From Bacteroidales bacterium (GTDB taxonomy: Bacteria > Bacteroidota > Bacteroidia > Bacteroidales > UBA932), in assembly GCA_015060335.1 (NCBI GenBank), contig SUYR01000001.1, positions 82,466 to 146,465 of the forward strand: a DNA stretch of 64,000 bases, read 5' to 3'. Below the pieces are notes generated by a model. It worked only from the letters and a program-made list of their open reading frames with translations. It was not told where the DNA came from and did not search any database. Of this stretch, positions 13 through 25,090 are shown piece after piece; position 1 is the first letter of the stretch, and every line of letters starts with the position of its first letter. Made by a program: the position numbers and the translations under genes.

Positions 13-540
13 ATGATTCTTAAGATACGTGAGATGAAGAATCCGTCAGCTGTTACCGGCCCGAAATGGATAAAGCTCACGAGCTTGTTGAATCAGATTG
101 ATGCTTGTGAAAGTGCGCATCTGCCTGTGACGATAATCAGCATACTCGAACTTCTTTCGGACAGAGAGGACGAGATAGGAATTATAGATGTTTGCCAGCC
201 TCCGTTGACGGATCTGACAATGAGAAAAGAAAAAATCGACAGATACCTCGAATGTAACTGTGCAAAGAAGATTACTCTGGAGCAGGTCGCAGACTACATA
301 GGAATGAGTCGTATATATTTCAGTGTCTTTTTCAAATCCCAATATGGAGAAGGCTTCGCGGATTATGTCAACCGCAAACGAGTGCAGAGATCCCAGGAAC
401 TACTCCTTCTTACAGACAAACCGCTCCCGTCAATCGCTTCAGAATGCGGTTTCAAGACTGTCCAGTACTATAATCGTATCTTCAAGAAAATAACAGGCAC
501 CACCCCGGCGACCTATAGAAAGAAGAAAACGGGTCTTTAG
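13..540 (+). CDS. AraC-family transcriptional regulator, C-terminal part (probably begins upstream of the window)
   Basis: C-terminal double HTH: ITLEQVADYIGMSRIYFSVFFKSQYGEGFADYVNRKRV...IASECGFKTVQYYNRIFKKITGTTPATYRKK. There is no N-terminal domain and the ORF abuts the window edge. Confidence 0.85.
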   Translation: MILKIREMKNPSAVTGPKWIKLTSLLNQIDACESAHLPVTIISILELLSDREDEIGIIDVCQPPLTDLTMRKEKIDRYLECNCAKKITLEQVADYIGMSRIYFSVFFKSQYGEGFADYVNRKRVQRSQELLLLTDKPLPSIASECGFKTVQYYNRIFKKITGTTPATYRKKKTGL

Positions 541-548
541 CCTTGTAC

Positions 549-658
549 TCCTGGCGCTTAACCCCTTGTCCCATAGTAATTTACGAATAATCGATTCCCC
601 GCCACCGGGGAATCGCGTTTCTGGTTTTCGTTGATAATCAGCGGATTAGGCGGCAGGC
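549..658. repeat. Copy A of a 110-bp multi-hairpin intergenic repeat
   Basis: Central hairpin CGATTCCCCG-CCAC-CGGGGAATCG (592-615), side hairpin CGTTGA-TAA-TCAGCG, and terminal CGGATTAGGCGGCAGGC. Same layout and length as 7582-7691 and 22104-22213. Confidence 0.85.
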
Positions 659-835: not shown

Positions 836-911
836 TGGAGCGGAAAACGAGACTCGAACTCGCGACCCCAACCTTGGCAAGGTTGTGCTCTACCAACTGA
901 GCTATTTCCGC
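836..911 (-). tRNA. tRNA-Gly (anticodon GCC), 3' CCA encoded
   Basis: Minus strand GCGGAAATAGCTCAGTTGGTAGAGCACAACCTTGCCAAGGTTGGGGTCGCGAGTTCGAGTCTCGTTTTCCGCTCCA: complete cloverleaf, anticodon loop TTGCCAA, discriminator U. Confidence 0.97.
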
Positions 912-1003: not shown

Positions 1004-4000
1004 TCATGACGTGCGTTTTGTCTGCTTATATGCAGATGGAGTCATGCCTTCATAATTCTTGAAGGCAGTGCTGAAATAGCTTTGGCTGGCGAATCCTGTC
1101 ATGTCGGATATCTCTGCTATGGTGAGCGATGTGGTCTCTATCAGAGACTTAGCCTTCTCGATACGGATCTTTGTTATATATTCCTTTGCGCCGGCACCTG
1201 TTATGGCTTTCATCTTATTATACAGAAGGGCGCGGCTCATTCCCATTTCCCGGCACATAAGCTGCTGGTCGAGTGCGGAGTTGCTGAGATTGTCAGATAT
1301 GATCTTGTTGAGCCTGATTATGAAGTCCTCTTCGTTGGATCCATATCCGGCTTCTGCTGTATCATCTGTATCAAGATATCTCTTACGTATTTGAGATTTG
1401 TTTCTTAACAGACTGCGTATAAGTTCCATAAGTGTTTCTGTTTCAAATGGTTTTGCGAGGAATCCGTCCGCTCCGAGCCTGTAACTTTCACTCTGACTGT
1501 AGTCCTCTCCTCGTGCTGTGAGCAGAACGAAAGGAATGTGGCTGTATTTCTCATTGCTTTTAACAGAGTTGCACAGCCAGAATCCGTCACCTTCAGGCAT
1601 GTTCACATCGCTGACAATTATGTCCGGCAGTCTTCCTGACGATATTTCTCTCAGGGCCGCGTGTCCGCCAGTAACTGTGATGATCTCTGAGAACTCGTCG
1701 CACAGGGCTTCGCGAAGGAAGTCCAGGAGGTCTTGACTGTCATCCACTATCATCAGTTTCATTCCTGACGTGTCGAATGTTTCGTCTGAATGTGCCGTAG
1801 TTGATTCCACTTCGTATGAATGTCCCAGCAGTTCGTTGAGGAAGGCTCGTGGTTCGAGGAGGTCTTCGGAGTCCGCTGACACCGGAATCTCCCACCAGAA
1901 TGTAGCGCCCCTGTCTTCGTTGTTATATACTCCTATCGAGCCACCGTGCATCTCTACAAGTATCTTTGAATATGACAGACCTATGCCACTGCCGTATTTC
2001 TCATTCTTGCTTTGGTAGAATCTGGTAAACATCTTTTCCGGGTCTATGTCGTTGCCGAGGCCTGGACCCTGGTCAGAAATGCTGGTACGGATCATTCCGT
2101 CTTCCGTAAGGACTGTCTTTATGGTTATTGTGTCACCCGGCAGACTGTGCTTGATGGCGTTTATAAGGAGATTCATGAGTACAGTGTCACATTTCTGTCT
2201 ATCTATTTCTGCATTGCCAATTGCCTTGTCAAAGTCATAGACAATCTCTATACCCTCTGCTTTTTCTTCATTTACGATATCTTCCACTGAGTTTTCTATC
2301 CATTTGTTGAATGCGGTACTTTCTGTTTTGAGATTGCTTCCGCTGATTTCCATTTTCCTCAGATCCAGAACCATGTCCAGGAGGTTGCGCATGCGGCGTG
2401 ACTGCCTGTAGATCCTGTTGAGGACAGGGTAGCTGCTGTCGTCGGTCCCGGTTGATTTCAGCAGACGTTTAAGTGGTGCCATCACTAACGTGAGAGGTGT
2501 GCGCAATTCGTGGCTGATATTTATAAGCATCTGCACCTTTTCTTCATATACTTTGTTTTCGCGTTCCTTTACAGCCATTTTAAGCTGGTTGGATTTTCTT
2601 TTGTTGATGGTGTATAGTGACAGGAAGAAAATGGAAGCTATAAACACAAGGCACACGCATATGAACCACCATGACAAGAACCATGGCTGAGGCACTTTCA
2701 GCGTAGTGAGTTGTGTGGGCTCTGTCCATTCGCCATTCCTTTTGGTGCATGATACGGTTATATCATGTGTGCCAGGTTTCGGTATCTGGTTGAGGACCAG
2801 TCTCGGTTCGTTAGTCTCGTACGTGTGCCCGGATACGGAAAAACGGAATTGTCTGTGTCTGAACATGTCTTTTTCCTTGACTGCCAGATCGATTCTAAGT
2901 GATTGGCTATGACTTGGAATCTTGAATTGCCGATTGTTCTCAACATCTGTCTTTACTCCGTCAATATATATTTCTCTCATTGTCAGTTCTGGCGCAATTG
3001 TGGTCTCTATCGTGTGTTCGTTATCGATGCACAGCAGTCCCTGCACGCCTCCCATATATATATTACCGTCTTTTGACAACAACTTCGGCTTGGGGAGATA
3101 TTCATTAGACTTGGCTCCGTCAGATTCTCCGAACAGTGTGAATGTCCCGGACTCTGACAGATATGCGGACAGTCCTCTTTCGGTCCCTATCCATATTCTC
3201 GAGCGCTTGTCGCAGATTACGGAAGTGGCATCGGAAAATATTGAAGATGTGACATGATGAAATGTTCCGTCAGCTACTGTAAAGCGGCAGAGGCCTTCTT
3301 CAGTGGCGAGCCAGATTATGCCATTATCAGAAAGATGTCCGCTACGAATCGGACCGTTCGGATGTTTCCCTTTCAGAGTCATTCTGTCCGAATCGTCATT
3401 CAACAGGTAGATTCCAAAATTGTCATGTAGCCAGATTCCTTCTTCTGAGTGCCCGATTGTCTGAAAATTTGAATGTGAAGACTCGGGGTCTTCAGAAATT
3501 ATTCTGGTACATTTGCCTGTCGATTTGTCGTATCTGTAAATCGCATTGGAATACATCAGGATGTCACCGTCGGCTTCGTTTAATAAGTTGATACTGCGTC
3601 CCGAAAATCTTATCTGGTATTGCATAGTGGTGTCAGCGATATGCATGGGTTGAATATTGCCGGTGTTCTTGTCGAATATGTAAATACCGTCTCCATACAC
3701 GGAAATAGCCAGTGTGCTTTCTGAATATTCTGCAATTGATACGACTTTTTTCTTGAATGTGCTGCTATAGTGCTCAAATTTCGACGTGTGCGGATCAAAT
3801 CTGTTGACACCCTCTCCATCTGTTCCTATCCATATCATATCTGAAGTCTTGTCCTGATACAGGCATAGTACAGTCGGATTGCTCAACCCGTTGGACAGGC
3901 CGAGATAGGAGTCTGTGTAAAAAGAGATCAGACTTCGGTTTATGTGAATGAGTCCGTCTCTGATACTTCCTGCCCAGATGTTTCCATAATGGTCTGTATG

Positions 4001-4873
4001 TAGGCTCTTGATTGAGTGCGCGGGGAATGATGCCCTGTCTCCGGATATGTGGGTAAGAGTCTGTATCTCATCTGTTTCCGGATTAATTATATTTATGCCG
4101 CCTCCATCTGTGCCAGCCAGTATGGTATTCCCTTTTTCTGTGAGGCATAGGACGATGTCATTGCTTAGTTTCGAGTTGGCTTTTCTATAATTCCTTATCT
4201 GCTGACCATCCTTGGTGTAGACCGTGATTCCATTATTGTAGTATGCAATCCATATGCGTCCCTTTCTGTCAATCAATGCGGCTGAAACTTCCTTCGAGTT
4301 GCCGTATGGGGCTTCGGAGATGGCTCTGTCGTTGAGGTCTATCAGAATCTTTCCTCTATTGGAGCAGCAGAGGAGTGTATTCTCGTTTATCATCCCCATG
4401 GAGCGGCAATCGAATTCTGTGTCTGTTTCGCAGAAAACCTCCAGGTTGCCGTTTTCGTATCTGTATATCTTGTTTCTTCCGCCAATCCATGTTGTATTAT
4501 TGTCTTGAACTGCACAGAAATAAGGCTCTTCAGCAACAGATACTTTTCTGAATCCGTCTTTTTCCGGCTCTTTTTTCAGGATGTGCCTGTCGGTCAGTAT
4601 AAACAGGTCGCCAGTGTTGCTGCAGCTTATATGAAACACTCTGCGGCTTTTGAATATATTGTCACTGTGATTTGTCAGGGAGTATCCGTCATAGCTGTAT
4701 AGTCCGTTGGGAGTTCCTATCCAGACATCTGAGTCCTTTTCCTTATATATGCAGTTTACTGTCGATGTGAGCCCTTCTTCCTGTGAGATGCGTGTATAGA
4801 CTAACGGCTTGTTATTGCTGAGAGCGTTGATTGCAGATGCTGCAAGGGTTAATGCGAGAACCAATCTTTTCAT
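1004..4873 (-). CDS. Hybrid two-component system regulator (HTCS): periplasmic beta-propeller sensor, histidine kinase, receiver, AraC HTH
   Basis: N-terminal propeller motifs (VWIGTPNGLYSYDG, IWAGSIRDGLIHI), H-box INISHELRTPLTLVMAPL, N/G boxes LMNLLINAIKH...GSGIGLSYSKILVEMHGG, receiver MIVDDSQDLL...DIIVSDVNMP, C-terminal AraC HTH. Confidence 0.97.
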   Translation of the reverse strand: MKRLVLALTLAASAINALSNNKPLVYTRISQEEGLTSTVNCIYKEKDSDVWIGTPNGLYSYDGYSLTNHSDNIFKSRRVFHISCSNTGDLFILTDRHILKKEPEKDGFRKVSVAEEPYFCAVQDNNTTWIGGRNKIYRYENGNLEVFCETDTEFDCRSMGMINENTLLCCSNRGKILIDLNDRAISEAPYGNSKEVSAALIDRKGRIWIAYYNNGITVYTKDGQQIRNYRKANSKLSNDIVLCLTEKGNTILAGTDGGGINIINPETDEIQTLTHISGDRASFPAHSIKSLHTDHYGNIWAGSIRDGLIHINRSLISFYTDSYLGLSNGLSNPTVLCLYQDKTSDMIWIGTDGEGVNRFDPHTSKFEHYSSTFKKKVVSIAEYSESTLAISVYGDGIYIFDKNTGNIQPMHIADTTMQYQIRFSGRSINLLNEADGDILMYSNAIYRYDKSTGKCTRIISEDPESSHSNFQTIGHSEEGIWLHDNFGIYLLNDDSDRMTLKGKHPNGPIRSGHLSDNGIIWLATEEGLCRFTVADGTFHHVTSSIFSDATSVICDKRSRIWIGTERGLSAYLSESGTFTLFGESDGAKSNEYLPKPKLLSKDGNIYMGGVQGLLCIDNEHTIETTIAPELTMREIYIDGVKTDVENNRQFKIPSHSQSLRIDLAVKEKDMFRHRQFRFSVSGHTYETNEPRLVLNQIPKPGTHDITVSCTKRNGEWTEPTQLTTLKVPQPWFLSWWFICVCLVFIASIFFLSLYTINKRKSNQLKMAVKERENKVYEEKVQMLINISHELRTPLTLVMAPLKRLLKSTGTDDSSYPVLNRIYRQSRRMRNLLDMVLDLRKMEISGSNLKTESTAFNKWIENSVEDIVNEEKAEGIEIVYDFDKAIGNAEIDRQKCDTVLMNLLINAIKHSLPGDTITIKTVLTEDGMIRTSISDQGPGLGNDIDPEKMFTRFYQSKNEKYGSGIGLSYSKILVEMHGGSIGVYNNEDRGATFWWEIPVSADSEDLLEPRAFLNELLGHSYEVESTTAHSDETFDTSGMKLMIVDDSQDLLDFLREALCDEFSEIITVTGGHAALREISSGRLPDIIVSDVNMPEGDGFWLCNSVKSNEKYSHIPFVLLTARGEDYSQSESYRLGADGFLAKPFETETLMELIRSLLRNKSQIRKRYLDTDDTAEAGYGSNEEDFIIRLNKIISDNLSNSALDQQLMCREMGMSRALLYNKMKAITGAGAKEYITKIRIEKAKSLIETTSLTIAEISDMTGFASQSYFSTAFKNYEGMTPSAYKQTKRTS

Positions 4874-5093
4874 GACGTGGTATATTTAAGTAACTTGACT
4901 GTTTCTGTGCACAAAATTAATAATTGCTGTCAACAAATTTGAAAAATTATTTTTGAAAATGTCTATTTTCTATTAAAAATCTGCTAAAACCGGCAGTCAA
5001 AATCAAAAACTGAAAATCTGAAAGTGTTTTTTGGAATATATAGGTATAGAATTGACAATACCTTCGCAGCAGAAACCAAAATCAGCTTTTCTT

Positions 5094-7553
5094 ATGAAGA
5101 ATATGGTGTACTGCATTATCTGCAACATTCTCCTTGTGGCACTTGTAATACTGACTTCATGCAGCAGACAGGTGGAACGGGTTACAATAGTGCCTGTTCC
5201 CGTACATATGGAGGTAGAACATGGAAATTTTGTCATCACGGACAACACAATAATATCTATCGAGGATGAATCCCAACGACCTGTTGCTGAATGGTTTGCC
5301 GGTCTGTTCCGTACGCCTGCAGGAAATATGCCTGTTGTTACCAATAATCCTGCCGAGGCTGGTATAAGACTGATGTGCGATCCTTCTCTTGGGAGCGAAT
5401 CGTATAGATTGTATGTGGGCAGGAGAGGCATAGATATACATGCGGCGGATGCGGCGGGAGCATTCTATGCCCTCCAGACTGTCCGTCAGGCCCTTCCGGC
5501 AGCACTTGAGTCTGATGTCCCTTCCCCCGAAGTAGTCTGGAAGGTGCCTTCGATGACTGTGTATGATTCGCCGAGGTTCCCTTATAGGGGTCTTATGGTG
5601 GATGTGTCAAGATATTTCCTCCCGAAGGATGATCTTCTTGAAATCATTGACTGCATGGCTATGCTCAAGCTCAACAATCTTCATCTTCATCTGACGGATG
5701 ACAACGGATGGCGGATCGAGATCAGAAAATATCCTTTGCTTACTCAGATAGGGGCGTGGCGTGCTGACAGACCGGATGTGCCGTTTCCGGACAGGAGCAA
5801 CCCTGTGGAAGGAGAACCGACTCCGATAGGGGGATATTATACTCAGGACGATATCCGTGAGATAGTGGCATATGCAGCAGAAAGACACGTCAATGTAATT
5901 CCTGAAATCGATATTCCGGCACATTCCAATTCGGCTCTTGCGGCCTATCCGGATCTGGCTTGCCCAGTGGTCGATAAATTCATCGGAGTGCTGCCGGGTC
6001 TGGGCGGAAGAAATGCAGATATAATATATTGTGCCGGCAATGACGATGTATTCGAGTTCCTCAGGAATGTCCTTGACGAGGTGTGTGAACTGTTTCCGTC
6101 CGAATATATACATCTTGGAGGCGACGAGGCTTGGAAGACATATTGGAAGATCTGTCCTCACTGTCAGGAGCGTATTTCTGACGAGGAACTTAAGGATGAG
6201 GAGGCACTGCAGGGCTGGTTCATGTCCCAGATGAACGACTATCTCAAGAGCAAGGGACGTACCATGATGTGTTGGGATGAGGTTACCAATTCGCGGATTC
6301 CGGAAGATGCGGTGGTCTTCGGATGGCGGGAAGATGGGGCGGCAGCGCTCAAGGCGGCCCGTCTTGGACATCGTTTTGTGATGACTCCGGCGGAAAAGCT
6401 GTATCTTATACGTTATCAGGGACCCCAGTGGTTTGAGCCGCTGACATATTTTGGCAACTCGACATTGAGCGATGTGTATGAGTATGATCCCGTACAGGAT
6501 TGTCCGGCGGAGCTGGAAAGCTTTCTGATGGGCATTCAGGGGTCCATGTGGACAGAATTCTGTGAATGTCCGGAGGATGTTGCATATCAGATATTTCCTC
6601 GACTTGCTGCCGTGGCGGAAAATGCGTGGTCTTCTTGCGGAAAAAGTAATTGGGCGGATTTTCTCAGACGTATGGACGGCTTTCTCAATCGTTTGGAGGC
6701 CAAGGGTGTAACATATTCAAAGGCAATGTATAATATTCAGCACGAAGCGGTCTCTGACGGGGAGGGTACTGTTGCTGTCACCCTGAAATGCGAAAGACCT
6801 GATGTGGCGATCAGATATACTATGGACGGGTCGGATCCGTGTGCAGATTCCCCTGTGTATTCGGGCACGATAAGCATTGGTGAGGCTGTGATGCTCAAGG
6901 CTGCAACCTTCTTTCCTGACGGATCTCAGGCAGGAAAGGTCCTGGAACTTCCTGTAGGTTGGAGCAAGGCTACCGCGTGCAGGGTGATGTCCGGACGTCC
7001 TGCTGCAAATGTCCTTACCAATGGTGTGCGGGGCAGTCTTCGCCAGACGGATTTCGAGTGGTGTCATTTTCATGACGATGCTGTCATTGTTGTGGATCTG
7101 GGTCAGGTTTCCGAAATCAGGCAGGTTGTCATCGGTACTCTCACAAACTATGGCATGGCATTCAACAGGCCTTCTTCAATTTCCCTTTCTCTGTCGGTTG
7201 ACGGGATCGACTATGTGCCTGCATGCAGCTGCGGATGGAGTGACGAGGATATATTCCGCGAAGGAAATTTCAAGGACGATGTGGTGTTTTCGTTCATTCC
7301 GTGTCCGGCAAGATATGTAAAGATCAAGGCGGTGCATCCGGGTGTCTGCCCGGAAGGTCATATCCGCAGCGGTCAGCTCTCACGTTTCTGTTTTGATGAG
7401 ATAAATGTCTATGGTCCACAGGCTTATTCTGGTCAGAATGCTCGAAAATCGACAATGTTCCTCCCTCAGCAGAAGCAGTCTTCGGTCATGGACAAGATAT
7501 CGGACAAATCGCAGAAAGATTTTCTTCGTTGGTCTTCGCTGGGAGGTATGTAG
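5094..7553 (+). CDS. GH20 beta-N-acetylhexosaminidase, lipoprotein, with C-terminal F5/8-type (CBM32-like) domain
   Basis: RGLMVDVSRYFLPKDDLLEIIDCMAMLKLNNLHLHLTDDNGWRIEI and catalytic IHLGGDEAWKTYWK. Lipobox LTSC supports the start at 5094; the ORF is open from 5031. Confidence 0.95.
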   Translation: MKNMVYCIICNILLVALVILTSCSRQVERVTIVPVPVHMEVEHGNFVITDNTIISIEDESQRPVAEWFAGLFRTPAGNMPVVTNNPAEAGIRLMCDPSLGSESYRLYVGRRGIDIHAADAAGAFYALQTVRQALPAALESDVPSPEVVWKVPSMTVYDSPRFPYRGLMVDVSRYFLPKDDLLEIIDCMAMLKLNNLHLHLTDDNGWRIEIRKYPLLTQIGAWRADRPDVPFPDRSNPVEGEPTPIGGYYTQDDIREIVAYAAERHVNVIPEIDIPAHSNSALAAYPDLACPVVDKFIGVLPGLGGRNADIIYCAGNDDVFEFLRNVLDEVCELFPSEYIHLGGDEAWKTYWKICPHCQERISDEELKDEEALQGWFMSQMNDYLKSKGRTMMCWDEVTNSRIPEDAVVFGWREDGAAALKAARLGHRFVMTPAEKLYLIRYQGPQWFEPLTYFGNSTLSDVYEYDPVQDCPAELESFLMGIQGSMWTEFCECPEDVAYQIFPRLAAVAENAWSSCGKSNWADFLRRMDGFLNRLEAKGVTYSKAMYNIQHEAVSDGEGTVAVTLKCERPDVAIRYTMDGSDPCADSPVYSGTISIGEAVMLKAATFFPDGSQAGKVLELPVGWSKATACRVMSGRPAANVLTNGVRGSLRQTDFEWCHFHDDAVIVVDLGQVSEIRQVVIGTLTNYGMAFNRPSSISLSLSVDGIDYVPACSCGWSDEDIFREGNFKDDVVFSFIPCPARYVKIKAVHPGVCPEGHIRSGQLSRFCFDEINVYGPQAYSGQNARKSTMFLPQQKQSSVMDKISDKSQKDFLRWSSLGGM

Positions 7554-7581: not shown

Positions 7582-7691
7582 GCCTGGCACTCAACCGCCT
7601 GACTGTCAATGTTTTATAGAAACGCGATTCCCCGTCGCAGGGGAATCGCCTTTCTGCATTGCGCTGACTCTCAGCGCTTTAAGCGGCAGGC
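7582..7691. repeat. Copy B of the 110-bp multi-hairpin intergenic repeat
   Basis: AGAAACGCGATTCCCC-GTCGCA-GGGGAATCGCCTTTCT, then GCGCTGA-CTC-TCAGCGC and AAGCGGCAGGC; aligns with copies A and C over equal length. Confidence 0.88.
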
Positions 7692-7799: not shown

Positions 7800-10700
7800 A
7801 TGCGCACACAAAGTCTTATCAAACATCTTTGCAGGGGGGGGCAACTCCTTACGGCCCTGCTGCTGATATTCTTCAGCGTCGAGCTTTCTGCTCAAAATGT
7901 CAGCACCATATCAGGTGTTGTAGTAGATGAATTTGACGAGCCTATGCCGGGAGTCGCAGTTTACGACCCCCTGGATACCGGCGGAGGAACGCTGACCTCC
8001 AACGATGGCCGTTATTCCATCATTGTTTCAAAATCTTGTAAAGAACTCGAGTTCTCATGCATGGGTTACAAGACCCAGAGGCTTTCCCTTGACAAGTCTG
8101 CCCTCGTAAGGCTTCAGCCCGACGCTCTGGCCATCGAGGAGACTGTCGTTACGGGTATCTATACCAGAAAGGCGGATTCATTCACGGGAGCCGTACAGTC
8201 AATAACCGCCGACAACCTCAAGAGAGTCGGAAACTCGAATGTCTTCGAATCGTTGAAGAATATCGATCCTTCTCTGATGATCCTGGACAACCTTGCAGCT
8301 GGTTCCGACCCGAATGCCATGGTATCCATGCAGCTTCGTGGCGCTTCGTCATTCGCGCTCGAGGGTACGACAAACCTCAAGAGTAACTTCGTCAACGACG
8401 CTAACATGCCTCTGTTCATCCTCGATGGTTTCGAAACTTCGGTCGAGAAGATCCAGGATATGGATATGAACCGCGTCCAGAGTATCACTATCCTCAAGGA
8501 TGCATCTGCAAAAGCTATCTACGGTTCAAAGGCAGGTAACGGTGTCATCGTGATCGAGACAAAGTCGCTCAGGTCTGATGAGACATTGATCACGTACAAT
8601 GGAAGTGTGGGAATCGAGACACCGGACCTTACAAGTTACAATCTTTGTAATGCGCTGGAGAAACTCGAGGTGGAGACGCGTGAAGGATATTATACCCCGA
8701 CAGCGATGCCTGATGCGGAGGCCCATATGCAATCTACAGAACTGTATTACTCGCGTCTCAAGAAGGCTTTGGAGGGGGAAAGTACATATTGGCTTTCAAA
8801 ACCTCTGCGTACGGGTATCTCACATCAGCATTCGCTCAGTGCAGAACTTGGTACAAAGGCCCTCAAAGCTATGGCTACGTTCAAGTATTCTGACACTCAG
8901 GGTACTATGAGAGGATCTTACCGACAGACGATTTCTGGCGACATAAATATCGCATATCGTTATGGAAAGTGGACGTTCAGAAATATAATGAGTATCGCAT
9001 CGATGAACAACGAGGACTCTCCTTACGGTTCATTCGATGAGGTAAGCCGTATCAATCCGTATTGTGCTCCTTATGATGAATTCGGTTCTCTTATCAAAAT
9101 CCTTGATAAGGTGGATGGTGTTGATGTGGGTAACCCGCTGTATAATGCTACTCTCAATACAAAGTTTGCAGAGTCTTATCTTGACTTTACGGACAATATG
9201 TATGTAGAGTACCAGATGTTCAAGCCATTGAAACTGGTTGGTCGTTTCAGTATCAGTTCCAAAAAGACCGAGATGGAGGATTTTTATCCCGCAGAGCATA
9301 CGAAATTCATAAGCGAGGACTGGGACAGCCGCGAGGACTTGATGATAAGAAAAGGTAGTTACGAGATTACCAACGGTAACCAGACAGCTTTTTCGGGTGA
9401 TATCTCGGCGCAGTTTAATTATTCATTTGCAAAGTCTCATGATCTGTTTGCAACGGGACAGTTTACTATCACAGAGACAAAATATGATGAGGTGTCGCAT
9501 AAAGCGGAAGGTTTCCCTAATAGCCGAATGAACAGCATCATTCATGCACGCCAGTATGCATTAGACTCTTCTCCTACGGGATATGATGGTATCAATAGAA
9601 ATATTGGTCTCCTTCTCACGGCGGGCTACAGCTATAAGGACAAATATATGCTTGATGCTACAATCCGAGGGTCTGCCTCATCGGTATTCGGTACCAACAA
9701 CAGATGGGGAACGTTCTGGAGTGCCGGACTTGCGTGGAACCTCCATAAGGAAGACTGGATGTCACAGGCTTCCTGGATCCAACAGCTCAAGATTCGCGGA
9801 TCTTTGGGATCTTCGGGAAATCAGAACTATTCTACCAACAGATCTCTTGCCGTCTATAAATACTATAATGACAGATATTATGACGGATTTACTGGTGCTG
9901 CCTTGGGTAATATGGAGAATCCTAACCTTGGATGGGAGCAGAAGATGGACTACAACCTCGGTCTGGACTTCAGGACATCTGCTATAACATTTACCGCAGA
10001 TTTTTATATCGCCGACACGAAGGATCTTGTATTCAACAGAACGCTTCTTCCGTCATCCGGATTCAGCACAGTTTCAGACAATCTCGGAGTGGTCCGCAAC
10101 AAAGGATTTGAGCTCAGCCTGAGCTATAGGTTGTTCCAGAGGGGCGCCTCATGGATGAGTGTGTTCGGAAAAGTGGCATACAATGACAACAGAATCCTGG
10201 AGATTTCAGATGCTCTTGAAGCATATAACAAGCTTCAGAAGCAGCAGGCGGTGGATACTGGTTCTCTTGAGCCTGTAGTGCAATACTACAACGGCATGCC
10301 TATGCATTCTATCTGGGCGGTAAGGTCTCTCGGTATTGACCCTGTTTCAGGCAAAGAGATTTTCCTCGACAGGAATGGAGACATGACAAACACCTGGAGT
10401 GCTAACGACCTGGTGAACTGTGGCTCTTCTGATCCTAAGTTTAATGGAAATTTCGGTCTTTCTGCAGAGATTAAGGGCATAGGAGTAAACCTTGTCTGCA
10501 GCTGGTACGGCGGAGGTTATATGTATAATACCACCCTGCTCAACAAGGTGGAGAACACTTACATCGGACATAATGTTGACAGACGTATCTTTACAGACAG
10601 ATGGTATCAGGTCGGCCAGGTAGCTCAGTTCCGAAACGGTTATTACAGTAGCATACAGGATCCAAAAAGTACATCATCGACAAAGGCAACATCTCGTTTT

Positions 10701-10907
10701 GTTCAGAAGAACAATACTCTGTCAGTGTCTTCTGCCTCAATATACTATGAATTTCCTTACAGTGTCATGAAAAAAATGAAGATGAATCGTCTTCGCTTGT
10801 CTTTGTATGCAAATGACCTGTACACCTTCTCTTCTATAAGGATTGAAAGAGGAACTTCGTATCCATATGCAAGATCATTCTCATTCTCTGTAACAGCGAC
10901 ATTCTAA
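7800..10907 (+). CDS. SusC/RagA-family TonB-dependent outer membrane transporter
   Basis: CarboxypepD_reg-like N-terminus (ISGVVVDEFDEPMPGVAVYD), plug motif ILKDASAKAIYGSKAGNGVIVIETK, C-terminal aromatic beta-strand ending. Confidence 0.96.
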   Translation: MRTQSLIKHLCRGGQLLTALLLIFFSVELSAQNVSTISGVVVDEFDEPMPGVAVYDPLDTGGGTLTSNDGRYSIIVSKSCKELEFSCMGYKTQRLSLDKSALVRLQPDALAIEETVVTGIYTRKADSFTGAVQSITADNLKRVGNSNVFESLKNIDPSLMILDNLAAGSDPNAMVSMQLRGASSFALEGTTNLKSNFVNDANMPLFILDGFETSVEKIQDMDMNRVQSITILKDASAKAIYGSKAGNGVIVIETKSLRSDETLITYNGSVGIETPDLTSYNLCNALEKLEVETREGYYTPTAMPDAEAHMQSTELYYSRLKKALEGESTYWLSKPLRTGISHQHSLSAELGTKALKAMATFKYSDTQGTMRGSYRQTISGDINIAYRYGKWTFRNIMSIASMNNEDSPYGSFDEVSRINPYCAPYDEFGSLIKILDKVDGVDVGNPLYNATLNTKFAESYLDFTDNMYVEYQMFKPLKLVGRFSISSKKTEMEDFYPAEHTKFISEDWDSREDLMIRKGSYEITNGNQTAFSGDISAQFNYSFAKSHDLFATGQFTITETKYDEVSHKAEGFPNSRMNSIIHARQYALDSSPTGYDGINRNIGLLLTAGYSYKDKYMLDATIRGSASSVFGTNNRWGTFWSAGLAWNLHKEDWMSQASWIQQLKIRGSLGSSGNQNYSTNRSLAVYKYYNDRYYDGFTGAALGNMENPNLGWEQKMDYNLGLDFRTSAITFTADFYIADTKDLVFNRTLLPSSGFSTVSDNLGVVRNKGFELSLSYRLFQRGASWMSVFGKVAYNDNRILEISDALEAYNKLQKQQAVDTGSLEPVVQYYNGMPMHSIWAVRSLGIDPVSGKEIFLDRNGDMTNTWSANDLVNCGSSDPKFNGNFGLSAEIKGIGVNLVCSWYGGGYMYNTTLLNKVENTYIGHNVDRRIFTDRWYQVGQVAQFRNGYYSSIQDPKSTSSTKATSRFVQKNNTLSVSSASIYYEFPYSVMKKMKMNRLRLSLYANDLYTFSSIRIERGTSYPYARSFSFSVTATF

Positions 10908-19957: not shown

Positions 19958-21988
19958 ATGAAAACATTGAAATTTTTTGTAGCAGCAGTAGCCGCACTTA
20001 TGGCTCTGGCCTGCACACAGGAGGAAATAGATGTTCTGACAATGGGTTCGTCAGAAGTCAAGGTTCCTTACGAGGGTGTTGAGAAGACACTCGAGTTTAC
20101 AGCAAGTACTGCTTGGACAATCGAGTCTGACCAGGACTGGGTATCATTCGACCAGACAGAAGGTGTTGCTGGCGACGTTACTGTAGTTATGACAGTAGCA
20201 GCCAACACAACTTACGAGAACCGTACAGCTGTTGTGACAATCAGTGCTGGTGACAAGTTCACTGAGATCACACTTCAGCAGGGTTTTGCATCTGAATTTG
20301 GCTCTGAACTGGTTTATGATTTCGATGATGCAGCTCACACAGTCACTTATACAGTCAGCACAAATGTGGACTATGAAGTGACAATCAGCGAAGATGCTAA
20401 GTCATGGATTACATATGTTCCTGCTGCAAAGGCTGCACCTGTTTCAGAAGTAGTTACCTTTGAAGTCGCTTCAAATCCGGGTAAGGACCGTAGCGGACTC
20501 GTTACTGTAAAGGTTGGCGAATATGCTCAGAATATCAGAATCAACCAGTATGGTTACATTGACATGACTGAGGCTTCGGCTATTCATCTCGGAACTAGGC
20601 AGTTCATCTATGATGCAGATAATGGTTATACTGATTTCGCAGAGTACTATTTGAGTTTTGCAAATGAAAATGGTGAGGCAATGACATTGTCACTCAATGC
20701 AGAGACGCCATCGTCTCCACTTGACGCAGTTCCTGCTGGAAACTATGTTGTGGATGCGTCAGGCAAGCATGCGAGCAAGACATTCACTATTGCATCACTT
20801 GACGGAAGTGTGAAATATTATACATCTCTTACAGCAGGCGGCGAGCAGAAACTGATTGTTGACGGAACAGTTTCTGTGGCTAAGTCGGAGGATGGTACAT
20901 ATACTATCATCGCAGGCCTTTACGACGAGGCTGGTAATATTTATCGTTACAGATATATTGGCGTGATTGCAGAAATTGTTGATGATTCATTCGGAGCAAG
21001 CGCAACTGCAGCAATGGATGGTCAGTACGAAACATATTTCGCTACAAAGGCAAATAGGTGGACCGTGACTTTCCATATAAATCAGAAGAATCCAGACTGT
21101 GAAGTGTACATGAACTATTTCTCAGTTTCATTATATACACCATCTACAAGTACAGCAGAGGATGGACTTCCTGTAGGTACCTATACCTATGCCCAGCCTG
21201 CAACTAATACAGACTCGAAGTATGCATGTGGTAACCTGATGGCTCAGCCTGGTGATATGACTTATTTCTATGGATCGGATGAGTCCGGTGCTACAGTAGA
21301 TTATCTTGAAGGTTCGACGATTGAAGTCGTAAAGAATGCTGACGGTACGTATAATTTTAAGCTTGACCTGAAGGCTACTTCATGGGAATATGATGCTGAC
21401 TGGAATCAGGTTACAGTGGAGGAAGAGTTTACTTATACTGCAGAGTTCAAGGAGGTATATGTGGAGCAGGTGGTTTCTAATACAACTCAGCCTACGCCTG
21501 ACGTTGATGCGGAATTTAATTCTGTAATGAGTCCTCAGACTATCGGTCTGTATTATGGTGACAGATGGGAGACAGGTGGTGCTACATTTGTAGTAGGCTT
21601 CAACTATGTAAATGGAATTTATACGGTTTATCTTGCTCTCAATCAGGCTGCTTCATATACATTTGAAAAGAACTTTAATAATAAGCACTGTGCAACTCCT
21701 ATCGAGGAAGGTACCTATACTTTCTCAAAGACTCCTAAGGCCGGCGAGAGATCTCTTGTTCCAGTCAAATTGGGAATGACATCCTACTGCTATGTGCAGA
21801 ATACTTATACAGGAACCAAACTTCCTATTACCGGAGGCTCTGTTACTTGGGAGAATGGTGTGATCAAGTATGACCTCGAGGCATCTGAGGGAGATGTGAA
21901 ATGTAAATTTACAGGTTCACATGCTGCAACATTCTATTTCGCTCAGGATAAATCAAGTAGTGCAGCAAATCTCAATATTGTTGAGTAA
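19958..21988 (+). CDS. BACON-domain lipoprotein with three C-terminal tandem beta-rich repeats
   Basis: Lipobox ALAC. Two BACON units (YEGVEKTLEFTASTAWTIESDQDWVSFDQTEGVAGDVTVVMTVAANTTYENRTAVVTIS; second with SWITYVPA...). Then three similar ~120-aa units. Confidence 0.8.
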   Translation: MKTLKFFVAAVAALMALACTQEEIDVLTMGSSEVKVPYEGVEKTLEFTASTAWTIESDQDWVSFDQTEGVAGDVTVVMTVAANTTYENRTAVVTISAGDKFTEITLQQGFASEFGSELVYDFDDAAHTVTYTVSTNVDYEVTISEDAKSWITYVPAAKAAPVSEVVTFEVASNPGKDRSGLVTVKVGEYAQNIRINQYGYIDMTEASAIHLGTRQFIYDADNGYTDFAEYYLSFANENGEAMTLSLNAETPSSPLDAVPAGNYVVDASGKHASKTFTIASLDGSVKYYTSLTAGGEQKLIVDGTVSVAKSEDGTYTIIAGLYDEAGNIYRYRYIGVIAEIVDDSFGASATAAMDGQYETYFATKANRWTVTFHINQKNPDCEVYMNYFSVSLYTPSTSTAEDGLPVGTYTYAQPATNTDSKYACGNLMAQPGDMTYFYGSDESGATVDYLEGSTIEVVKNADGTYNFKLDLKATSWEYDADWNQVTVEEEFTYTAEFKEVYVEQVVSNTTQPTPDVDAEFNSVMSPQTIGLYYGDRWETGGATFVVGFNYVNGIYTVYLALNQAASYTFEKNFNNKHCATPIEEGTYTFSKTPKAGERSLVPVKLGMTSYCYVQNTYTGTKLPITGGSVTWENGVIKYDLEASEGDVKCKFTGSHAATFYFAQDKSSSAANLNIVE

Positions 21989-22103: not shown

Positions 22104-22213
22104 GCCTGCCGCCTAATCCGTTGACTCTTAAGCGTTTGCAGAAAGGCGATTCCCCTCCGCAGGGGAATCGCCTTTCTGCAAAGCGTTGATCTTCAGCGCT
22201 TTGGGTGCCAGAC
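22104..22213. repeat. Copy C of the 110-bp multi-hairpin intergenic repeat (best-preserved palindrome)
   Basis: Perfect 21-bp inverted repeat TTTGCAGAAAGGCGATTCCCC - TCCGCA - GGGGAATCGCCTTTCTGCAAA (22135-22182). Left end GCCTGCCGCCTAATCCG is the exact reverse complement of the copy A right end CGGATTAGGCGGCAGGC. Confidence 0.92.
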
Positions 22214-22372: not shown

Positions 22373-25090
22373 ATGACAGAAAAGAAACCTACCGAGACCC
22401 CGATGATGAAGCAGTATTTCGCTATGAAGGCGGAACATCCTGAGGCGTTGCTTCTGTTCAGGTGCGGTGATTTTTATGAGACATACGGAGAGGATGCGCT
22501 GACTGCAAGCAAGGTGCTGGGTATCGTATTGACAAAACGTTCGAGTGCTACTCCCGGAGCGATACCGATGGCAGGTTTCCCTCATCATTCGCTTGAGACA
22601 TATCTTCCAAGACTTGTGCGTTCCGGTTATAAGGTGGCTGTGTGCGATCAGCTCGAAGATCCGAAACTTACCAAGAAGATTGTCAAGAGGGGTATCACCG
22701 AGCTGGTGACTCCGGGTGTTGCATTCAACGAGCAGCTCCTCGACCAGAAGGAGCACAATTATATTGCCGGTCTCACTTTCTTCAAGGAGAAATGTGGAGC
22801 GGCATTTCTTGATGTATCTACAGGTACTTTCCAGGTTGCAGAAGGATCTCTGGACTATATCGGCACGCTGCTGGGTTCGTTCTCTCCGAAGGAGCTGCTT
22901 GTGCCGAGAGGTTTTGAGAAAGGTACTCGTGAGAAGTTTGGAGACGGTTTCTATATATCGACTCTCGAGGAATGGGCTTTTGTATATGAGAGTTCGGTGG
23001 AGAAGCTCAAGAGGCAGTTCAAGGTGGATTCCCTCAAAGGCTTTGCTGTGGATAATTTCCCTCTTGGAATCACATCGGCTGGAGCTCTGCTGATCTATCT
23101 TGAGCAGACCCAGCATAAGGATCTGACAAACATCTGCTCGATTTCCCGTATCGATGAGGGCGCATTCGTATGGATGGACCGTTTTACCTTCCGTAATCTC
23201 GAGGTCTTCAATTCGACCGCGGGCAAGGAAGGGACTTCGCTTGTGGATGTGATGGACAGGTGTTCTTCTCCAATGGGTGCAAGAATGTTGCGTTCTTGGC
23301 TTGCCATGCCGGTAATGGACCTGAAGGAGCTTGAAGACAGATATTCTGTGGTACAGCATTTTGTGGATAATCGGGATGACCTTGTACGCCTTCAGACCAT
23401 GATAGGCGATATCGGAGACCTTGAGAGGATCATATCCCGCGCGGCTGCCGGCAAGATAATGCCAAGAGAGGTCATGCAGCTCAGTCGCGGATTGAGTAGG
23501 ATGGAACCGATAGTGTCTTTATGCACGGGTAAAGGAGTGTCTGCACTCGATGATATGACAGGCAGGATGGGGGATTGCAGCCAGCTGCTGGAATATCTCG
23601 GCAGCACCATGCATCCTGAGACTGCATCGCAGCTCGGAAAGGGAGATGTCATTGCAGACGGAGTGAATGCAGAGCTGGATGAACTCCGCAGGATTGCCCG
23701 TCACGGCAAGGATTATCTTCTGGATATACAGCAGAGAGAAATCGAACGCACCGGAATTTCGTCTCTGAAGATAGGATTCAACAACGTGTTCGGCTACTAT
23801 CTGGAGGTGCGCAATGCCCACAAGGACAATGTGCCGGAGGAATGGATAAGGAAACAGACACTTGTAAATGCAGAGAGATATATAACAGAAGAGCTGAAGG
23901 AATATGAGCAGAAGATTCTGGGAGCGGAAGAAAGGATATATGCTCTTGAGGTGCAGATATATTCCGAGCTGGTGTCAAGAATCCAGTCACAGATATCGGT
24001 GATACAGGGCAACTGCCGGATTCTTTCCCGCCTCGATGTGCTTTCTTGTTTTGCAGACCTTGCTCTTTCAAACGGTTATTGCCGTCCTTCGATGAATGAC
24101 AGCAGGATTATAGATATCAGGCAGGGACGCCATCCGGTCATCGAGACAATGATGCAGGCAGGGGAGGAGTTCGTGCCGAATGACATATATCTGGACAATT
24201 CTTCCCAGCAGGTGATAATCCTTACAGGACCTAATATGGCGGGTAAGTCTGCGCTTCTGAGGCAGACAGCCCTGATAGTCCTGATGGCCCAGGTCGGATC
24301 GTTCGTTCCGGCAGCCGAAGCCACAATAGGCTATTGCGACAAGATATTCACTCGCGTGGGAGCATCTGACAATATTTCGCGTGGAGAATCCACATTCATG
24401 GTGGAGATGCTCGAGACATCGATGATTCTTCATAATCTTTCTTCGCGTTCTCTGGTGCTTCTCGATGAGATCGGACGCGGAACGTCCACATATGACGGAA
24501 TGTCCATTGCACGTGCCATTGTGGAATATGTGCATGAATACGGAGACGGAGCGAAGACCCTGTTCGCTACCCATTATCATGAACTTAATGACCTGGAGGA
24601 GATATATCCTCGCGTGAAGAATTTCCATATCGCAGTAAAGGAAGTCGGCAAGAATGTGATTTTCCTGAGAAAGCTCAAGGAGGGCGGTGTGGCTCATAGT
24701 TTCGGACTTCATGTGGCGCGTATGGCGGGCATGCCGAAGCAGGTGCTGGAGTCGGCGGAGAAGACATTGGCGGCGTTGGAGAGGAATGAGATTTCTCCAC
24801 TCCCTACAGTCGGTCGAAATGACAGTGGTGATACGGCCGGTCGGAGTGACAATGCCGTTTCAGGAGAGACCGGTAACAGGAATTCCAAAAAGCGTAATAC
24901 CATAAAGCCATATAATATAAAGGAAGGACGTGTCGAAAGCGACGGCTCTCTTCAGCTGTCGTTCTTCCAGCTTGAAGATCCGCTCCTGTCATCACTCAAG
25001 GCCGAGCTTGACAACGCAGATCTGAACAACATGACTCCTCTCCAGGCTTTTGACCTGCTCCGCAGCATGAAGGAACAATTAGGAATATAA
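22373..25090 (+). CDS. mutS: DNA mismatch repair protein MutS
   Basis: MutS N-terminus (TPMMKQYFAMKAEHPEALLLFRCGDFYETYGEDA), Walker A TGPNMAGKSALLRQTALIVLMAQ, LLDEIGRGTSTYDGMSIA, FATHYHEL. Confidence 0.98.
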   Translation: MTEKKPTETPMMKQYFAMKAEHPEALLLFRCGDFYETYGEDALTASKVLGIVLTKRSSATPGAIPMAGFPHHSLETYLPRLVRSGYKVAVCDQLEDPKLTKKIVKRGITELVTPGVAFNEQLLDQKEHNYIAGLTFFKEKCGAAFLDVSTGTFQVAEGSLDYIGTLLGSFSPKELLVPRGFEKGTREKFGDGFYISTLEEWAFVYESSVEKLKRQFKVDSLKGFAVDNFPLGITSAGALLIYLEQTQHKDLTNICSISRIDEGAFVWMDRFTFRNLEVFNSTAGKEGTSLVDVMDRCSSPMGARMLRSWLAMPVMDLKELEDRYSVVQHFVDNRDDLVRLQTMIGDIGDLERIISRAAAGKIMPREVMQLSRGLSRMEPIVSLCTGKGVSALDDMTGRMGDCSQLLEYLGSTMHPETASQLGKGDVIADGVNAELDELRRIARHGKDYLLDIQQREIERTGISSLKIGFNNVFGYYLEVRNAHKDNVPEEWIRKQTLVNAERYITEELKEYEQKILGAEERIYALEVQIYSELVSRIQSQISVIQGNCRILSRLDVLSCFADLALSNGYCRPSMNDSRIIDIRQGRHPVIETMMQAGEEFVPNDIYLDNSSQQVIILTGPNMAGKSALLRQTALIVLMAQVGSFVPAAEATIGYCDKIFTRVGASDNISRGESTFMVEMLETSMILHNLSSRSLVLLDEIGRGTSTYDGMSIARAIVEYVHEYGDGAKTLFATHYHELNDLEEIYPRVKNFHIAVKEVGKNVIFLRKLKEGGVAHSFGLHVARMAGMPKQVLESAEKTLAALERNEISPLPTVGRNDSGDTAGRSDNAVSGETGNRNSKKRNTIKPYNIKEGRVESDGSLQLSFFQLEDPLLSSLKAELDNADLNNMTPLQAFDLLRSMKEQLGI
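24788..24825. repeat. REP-like dispersed repeat embedded in the mutS coding sequence
   Basis: GAGATTTCTCCACTCCCTACAGTCGGTCGAAATGACAG, resembling the GAGATTTCTC...GGTCGAAATGAC palindromic repeat seen in Bacteroidetes genomes, followed by a second GGTCGGAGTGACA half-copy. Confidence 0.6.

Follow-up and report, generated by a model that had tools for sequence, protein, structure and literature searches.

REPIN-like elements and a probable cognate RAYT in a Bacteroidales genus keep one hairpin shape while the stem sequence differs between species

Most of what is known of RAYT/REPIN systems comes from Proteobacteria. In Pseudomonas fluorescens SBW25, REPINs consist of two inverted half-elements in a long hairpin of about 110 bp, are intergenic and lie near a cognate RAYT; several families are present in one genome, each with a RAYT of its own, tandem clusters include the flanks, and compensatory changes are seen (PMC3116915). 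The elements described here are like the SBW25 REPINs in all of these respects. In Escherichia coli, TnpA-REP acts on a single REP of 20-50 nt with a GTAG guide (4er8; PMC8266576), and published RAYTs cut at C|T beside their hairpins (PMC8266576). RAYT-associated elements of Bacteroidetes have earlier been noted as 'atypical structures', and the GT[AG]G tetranucleotide, also absent in subclass 2.6 and class 3, is not universal (PMC6006769). Here, we analysed a stretch of 64,000 nucleotides from a Bacteroidales genome (the window). Judging from sequence, three sites in it are very probably copies of a non-autonomous REPIN-like element, which would be disseminated by a RAYT encoded outside the window in the same genome (Table 1).

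As the first-pass annotation had proposed, the three intergenic sites of 110 bp align end to end without a gap, and cmsearch of the window, using a covariance model built from 32 copies, returned exactly three copies (E 1e-18 to 1e-22). The core pattern occurs three times in the window and not once in 100 shuffles. The conserved sequence spans model columns 4-111, about 108 bp, and copies B and C fold much more stably than their shuffles (z -5.7 and z -6.4), with z -3.0 for copy A. The element is an imperfect palindrome with an outer stem of 12 bp, a central stem of 19 bp and, between them, two symmetric motifs (TAA..CTGAnnnTCAG..TTA). Reading inward from either end, one meets CYTGnCnnnnTAA, the motif around CTGAnnnTCAG, TTAnnnAAA and then the central stem; by column profile, the right half is an inverted copy of the left, and the two halves share one profile. 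The perfect terminal ends reported in the first-pass annotation had been taken from two copies, the left one from copy C and the right one from copy A. The ends are inverted, but no single copy in the window has both of them perfect, and end pairing within each copy is imperfect. The side motif CTGA-nnn-TCAG, described there as single, is present on both sides. A tRNA gene lies downstream of copy A (window 839-911, minus strand), flanked by the AraC-family gene and the gene of a hybrid two-component regulator (1004-4873).

Table 1. Positions of the element copies, their parts and the two transposase genes with adjacent elements (window coordinates unless a contig is given)
Feature	Position	Strand	Description	Surroundings or partner	Evidence
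Element copy A	549..658 (conserved part 550-657)	.	Imperfect palindrome	8 bp past the stop of an AraC-family gene (13-540)	cmsearch, 86.4 bits
Element copy B	7582..7691 (conserved part 7583-7690)	.		GH20 gene (5031-7553) on one side, SusC-like gene (7800-10907) on the other	96.8 bits
Element copy C	22104..22213 (conserved part 22105-22212)	.		BACON-domain gene (19958-21988) on one side, mutS (22373-25090) on the other	102.1 bits
Copy A outer stem, left arm	550..561		Columns 4-15	Pairs with 646-657	Between-genome covariation (helix 1)
Copy A outer stem, right arm	646..657		Columns 100-111		Between-genome covariation (helix 1)
Copy A central stem, left arm	582..600		Columns 36-54; holds invariant CGATTCCCC	Pairs with 607-625	Covariation (helix 3)
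Copy A central stem, right arm	607..625		Holds invariant GGGGAATCG		Covariation (helix 3)
Copy A left dyad motif	564..578		Columns 18-32; consensus CTGAnnnTCAG, degenerate in copy A		Column profile; hairpin unsupported
Copy A right dyad motif CGTTGATAATCAGCG	629..643		Columns 83-97; the side hairpin of the first-pass annotation		Column profile; hairpin unsupported
Copy B central stem, left arm	7615..7633	.		Pairs with 7640-7658	Folding, covariation
Copy B central stem, right arm	7640..7658	.			Folding, covariation
Copy C central stem, left arm	22137..22155		Continuous 21-bp stem in copy C	Pairs with 22162-22180	Folding, covariation
Copy C central stem, right arm	22162..22180	.			Folding, covariation
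C4 RAYT	G000:C4:26117-27049 (outside the window)		310 aa, HUH/Y1		HxH at residues 60-62, Tyr120 in YLFNNP
Second RAYT	G000:C29:14074-15003 (L031:1411-2340)			Amid three copies of its own family	

The genome around the window, a 2.46-Mb draft that is 86% complete, holds many more copies than the three with which the first-pass annotation worked. The core CGATTCCCC-N6-GGGGAATCG, counted with the pattern CGATTCCCC-N(4,8)-GGGGAATCG, is found in 89 exact copies genome-wide (0 with a reversed-pattern control), and 93 cores are recovered when up to three mismatches are allowed; all 150 candidate placements scored by the covariance model, on both strands, lie at E < 1e-10. Tandem arrays with repeated flanks are present on contigs C46 (period about 252 bp), C6 (about 220 bp) and C23. 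Contigs C10, C11, C27, C29, C44, C46 and C49 start or end within about 1 kb of an element. The assembly may thus be interrupted by the repeats or by their duplicated flanks, and the count given here may be too low. At the starts of contigs C11 and C8 (L020:89-202 and L021:16-129), two half-elements that share an identical unrelated left flank, TTTCACCCGTTAGAACATGCCCATGCTGGGCGTACTAC, are joined to different right halves, as in a chimera or a recombination junction. Viral contigs gave one core match only, a chance one that lies inside a phage coding gene and has no arms.

By simple ORF calls the copies are mostly intergenic, following genes and often touching the stop codon on one or both sides. 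This position, together with a core that scores as terminator-like on both strands, could be expected of bidirectional intrinsic terminators, or of RNA hairpins stabilising 3' ends, that resemble each other through shared function. We consider this explanation very unlikely: the U-tracts are weak (TTTC), copies occupy divergent gaps (6/48) besides convergent and tandem ones, and no Rfam family matches the element above the gathering score, a tRNA being the only match in the window. The fixed length of 114 bp, the dyad motifs and the bracketing of a RAYT would also be left unexplained. Termination may nevertheless be a side effect of the element.

The first-pass annotation had noted no RAYT in the window and had pointed to the rest of the genome as the place to look for one. 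Both points were borne out by a search with the Pfam model Y1_Tnp, which detected several such genes, all elsewhere in the genome. The RAYT on contig C4 has intact HxH and Tyr residues and is bracketed by copies of the element: the upstream one (C4:26001-26114) ends 2 bp short of its ATG, and the downstream one (C4:27035-27148) contains its stop codon. The RAYT on contig C29 is accompanied by a family whose core, ATGCCTGC-N12-GCAGGCAT (ATGCCTGCN12GCAGGCAT), is present in 19 exact copies genome-wide; this family has the general layout of the C4 family, with an asymmetric loop, TCCCCAAAGTACG. Two more distant Y1-like genes were also seen, one on contig C41 (L034:826-1758; G000:C41:5708-6640, minus strand), which matches Y1_Tnp weakly (14 bits) and has an element copy 1.7 kb away, and one on contig C4 (L033:1387-2247; G000:C4:45426-46286), which matches REP_Tyr_transpos with 34 bits.

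Homologues of the RAYT (E <= 1e-5) are encoded in 30 of 41 genomes of the genus, the best ones being 29-48% identical. In GTDB genomes 126 relatives were confirmed, and those listed all come from Bacteroidales or Bacteroidia MAGs, mostly from ruminant gut. Of 50 relatives, 49 are hit by the NCBIfam model REP_Tyr_transpos (best E 3e-15), while the two proteins of the window genome and the lead relative score 33-38 bits against an equivalog cut-off of 80. An AlphaFold2 model of a close relative, L094 (pLDDT 93.5), finds its best PDB match in 4er8, in which the E. coli RAYT is complexed with a REP hairpin, and IS200/IS605 transposases come next; the match to 4er8 (TM-score 0.69 by target, E 5.7e-5, 15% identity) covers about 140 of the 325 residues. 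We conclude that the transposase core is a TnpA-REP homologue, although its score does not reach the equivalog cut-off of NCBIfam. The C-terminal half (about residues 160-310), which could be the part that reads the stem, has no match among the Pfam and NCBIfam models. This same region is predicted to be confidently folded and mostly helical.

Across the genus, RAYT loci are bracketed in the same way, with stop codons at recurring in-element offsets of -15, -23 and -8; some RAYT loci have no detectable element. When 80 RAYT loci, fetched independently, were scanned by structure only, 29 had an element next to the RAYT, compared with 0 of 80 shuffled controls. A strong RAYT homologue is present in all 12 genus genomes that have at least two element matches and in 9 of the 24 others (Fisher p 2.6e-4). 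The core identity between RAYT-adjacent and dispersed elements is 0.74 within the same genome and 0.35 between genomes, some loci of genomes G006 and G003 being exceptions, and the distance between RAYTs correlates with the distance between elements (Mantel r 0.34, 1/999 permutations; 29 loci from an independent collection). At one RAYT locus, in genome G005 (L077:2422-2802), three head-to-tail elements with a period of 134 bp lie directly behind the RAYT, which may represent a stage in the growth of an array.

With its terminal inverted repeats and its small size, the element could also be taken for a classical MITE, whose transposase would be of the DDE type and would recognise these repeats. 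This origin is extremely improbable in our view, as the centre of the element and not its tips is best conserved, the transposase bracketed by copies, from a search that covered the Y1 family, is of the Y1 and not of the DDE type, and target-site duplication is absent: none was detected above chance at any length in 46 copies, with all boundary shifts tried. The first-pass annotation had called the element "MITE- or REP/BIME-like"; the second affinity agrees with the roughly 90 copies, the tandem clusters and the bracketed RAYT, and a DDE-type MITE is unlikely in the face of the missing duplication and the linked Y1 gene.

Searches with the covariance model detected related elements in 18 of the 36 other genus genomes, and 24 genomes that represent other families of the order yielded none. 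The related elements are 113-115 bp long, and their central and outer stems vary by species, including AATCCTCGGC, TTTCTCGTTC, GCGTGCTCCC, CCCTGGTCCC and others. A sister species, whose MutS is 91% identical over the first 242 residues (about 80% for mutS DNA), has 0 copies of the CGATTCCCC/GGGGAATCG core and carries elements of the same layout with the core ATCACCTGC. For 19 elements from 13 genomes, aligned without gaps, covariation between genomes reached 0.506, a strength somewhat inflated by the partial use, in finding the elements, of a structure-aware model that favours paired candidates, compared with 0.190 +/- 0.016 when shuffled (0/500) and at most 0.14 when partners were slid. In columns 46-52 of the central stem, seven consecutive pairs have both sides changed in 9-12 sequences each, with one broken cell. 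Swapping right halves between genomes lowered central pairing from 16.6 to 10.3 of 19 (maximum 12.5 in 300 trials). The slide and swap controls indicate that detection bias is not the cause of the covariation.

This covariation is limited to the outer and central stems. Among the copies of the window genome, 80.3% of cells are paired versus 80.2% when shuffled, and covariation is 0.129 versus 0.135. The suggestion of the first-pass annotation that partly kept pairing reflects a conserved structure fails within the genome; comparison between genomes bears it out strongly, but in no more than the outer and central stems. The side motifs showed no covariation within or between genomes, either as self-hairpins or as cross-arm pairs, while their bases T21 and A29 are almost invariant. 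Conserved sequence is a more apt description of these motifs than hairpins. The "cruciform-capable" element with a compensated side hairpin thus finds no support in that form: the supported shape is a long interrupted hairpin, and "cruciform" is too strong a word. The conserved columns do not contain the tetranucleotide GT[AG]G at the foot of the hairpin.

Mean pairwise identity among the copies of the window genome is 67%, with a maximum of 79% outside duplications, and the copies are star-like, without detectable pedigree. A pedigree test by linked halves found no linkage in descent between the two halves of one copy. A division into two half-element types that form heterodimers was also considered and rejected; the two types are weakly separated, and heterodimers show no enrichment (19 versus 18.3 expected). 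The copies appear to be old and, since they are old and star-like, recent activity is doubtful. The core, on the other hand, is exact in 89 of 93 copies at a divergence from consensus of 28.8% in non-core columns, at which 0.2% of the 18-nt cores would be expected intact, and nine more columns beyond the core are also invariant. Such near-total invariance is not predicted for dead copies that decay freely: either selection maintains each single copy or copies whose core is broken are lost fast, and the present data fit both.

It is therefore a tentative possibility, though an unlikely one, that the roughly 90 copies are maintained functional sites, with the RAYT or another protein of the lineage domesticated and binding of the core under purifying selection. 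Their roles might lie in chromosome organisation, termination or end processing, and they may have spread first as a mobile element. The exact core, the further invariant columns and the age of the copies all speak for this, and the sister species, which lacks this core and has elements of the same kind, points to a lineage-specific constraint like that of a DNA-binding protein. The same pattern is also expected, however, if only copies with an intact core are made and broken ones are deleted fast; moreover, no host phenotype is known, and the conserved part is wholly replaced between sister species, which would be odd for an essential site. A more specific version, to which we give slightly less credit still, is a maintained hairpin network read by a domesticated long RAYT, in which the core is selected letter for letter, the arms drift, and the transposase and all stems switch together between sister species. 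If true, this would be an example from bacteria of a DNA-binding protein and its scattered sites evolving together in a concerted or driven manner.

Most likely, the elements spread by RAYT-mediated single-strand transposition, with the species-specific stem as an address label. In single-stranded DNA, as arises in replication, in transcription or on the lagging-strand template, the element would form a long hairpin that leaves two conserved patches open. The cognate RAYT would read the species-specific stem (GATTCCCC in the window genome), and the conserved YTGA/TCAR patches would act as a guide or be cut, with the YT within the CTGA motif as the candidate cleavage position. The RAYT would then nick the strand, form a 5'-phosphotyrosine link and join the strand elsewhere without target duplication, and copies would come to rest between genes, in many cases directly at stop codons, where a palindrome is presumably least harmful. 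The mutS, hisIE and manA neighbours and a 138-kb stretch of the sister genome yielded no clean pair of occupied and empty sites, since the collinearity of neighbouring genes does not extend to the relatives; with neither a target-site duplication nor a collinear empty site, movement is deduced rather than directly demonstrated.

Read from its sequence features, the system appears to work like REPIN/RAYT, with the putative activity of the RAYT being single-strand cleavage and strand transfer. Many intergenic palindromic copies, two inverted half-elements and an adjacent cognate Y1 HUH transposase are all present, and only the GT[AG]G foot is missing among the defining features. A search of the open-access literature found no paper describing the element or its cognate long RAYT. 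The uncultured gut genus is a natural experiment, in which one architecture and one transposase family are combined with a different stem in each species, and comparison across it can reveal how a RAYT recognises its hairpin, through the residues that change when the stem changes. The invariant core, in turn, makes directly testable the open question of whether transposition or selection on the individual copies is what keeps REPINs in being.

Unlike in the REPINs of SBW25, which have conserved 16-mers at both ends, the core of the central stem is best conserved here, GT[AG]G is absent, and the length is kept across species while the stems are replaced; the RAYT, with about 310 aa, has an extra C-terminal half, and stop codons lie inside the element (PMC3116915). 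Compared with E. coli TnpA-REP, the predicted core fold is that of a RAYT, HUH and Tyr are kept, and cleavage at C|T is compatible with the conserved YT, whereas the E. coli protein has no C-terminal extension, is 15% identical and acts on a single short REP with a GTAG guide (4er8; PMC8266576). Within the same phylum, the 'atypical secondary structures' of Bacteroidetes TnpAREP subclass 2.6 likewise flank RAYTs, lack GT[AG]G and have copies elsewhere in the genome (PMC6006769). The proteins of that subclass, however, average 179 aa with NH[LIV]H and YIH[QN]NP, while the family described here averages about 310 aa with mostly DHxH, YxxNNP and WN instead of WQ (alignments A4/A6); an assignment to subclass 2.6 was rejected, as motifs and length do not fit its definition (PMC6006769). 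The main text of PMC6006769 contains no account of structures that would allow one to recognise the 114-bp layout. Subclass 2.4 (YIxNNP, NH[IFV]H, GT[AG]G REPs, and REPs located inside the gene) comes closer in its Tyr motif alone, as HUH motif and REP type differ. What is new with respect to these systems is a REPIN/RAYT branch in which sister species have the same hairpin shape and a wholly different stem sequence.
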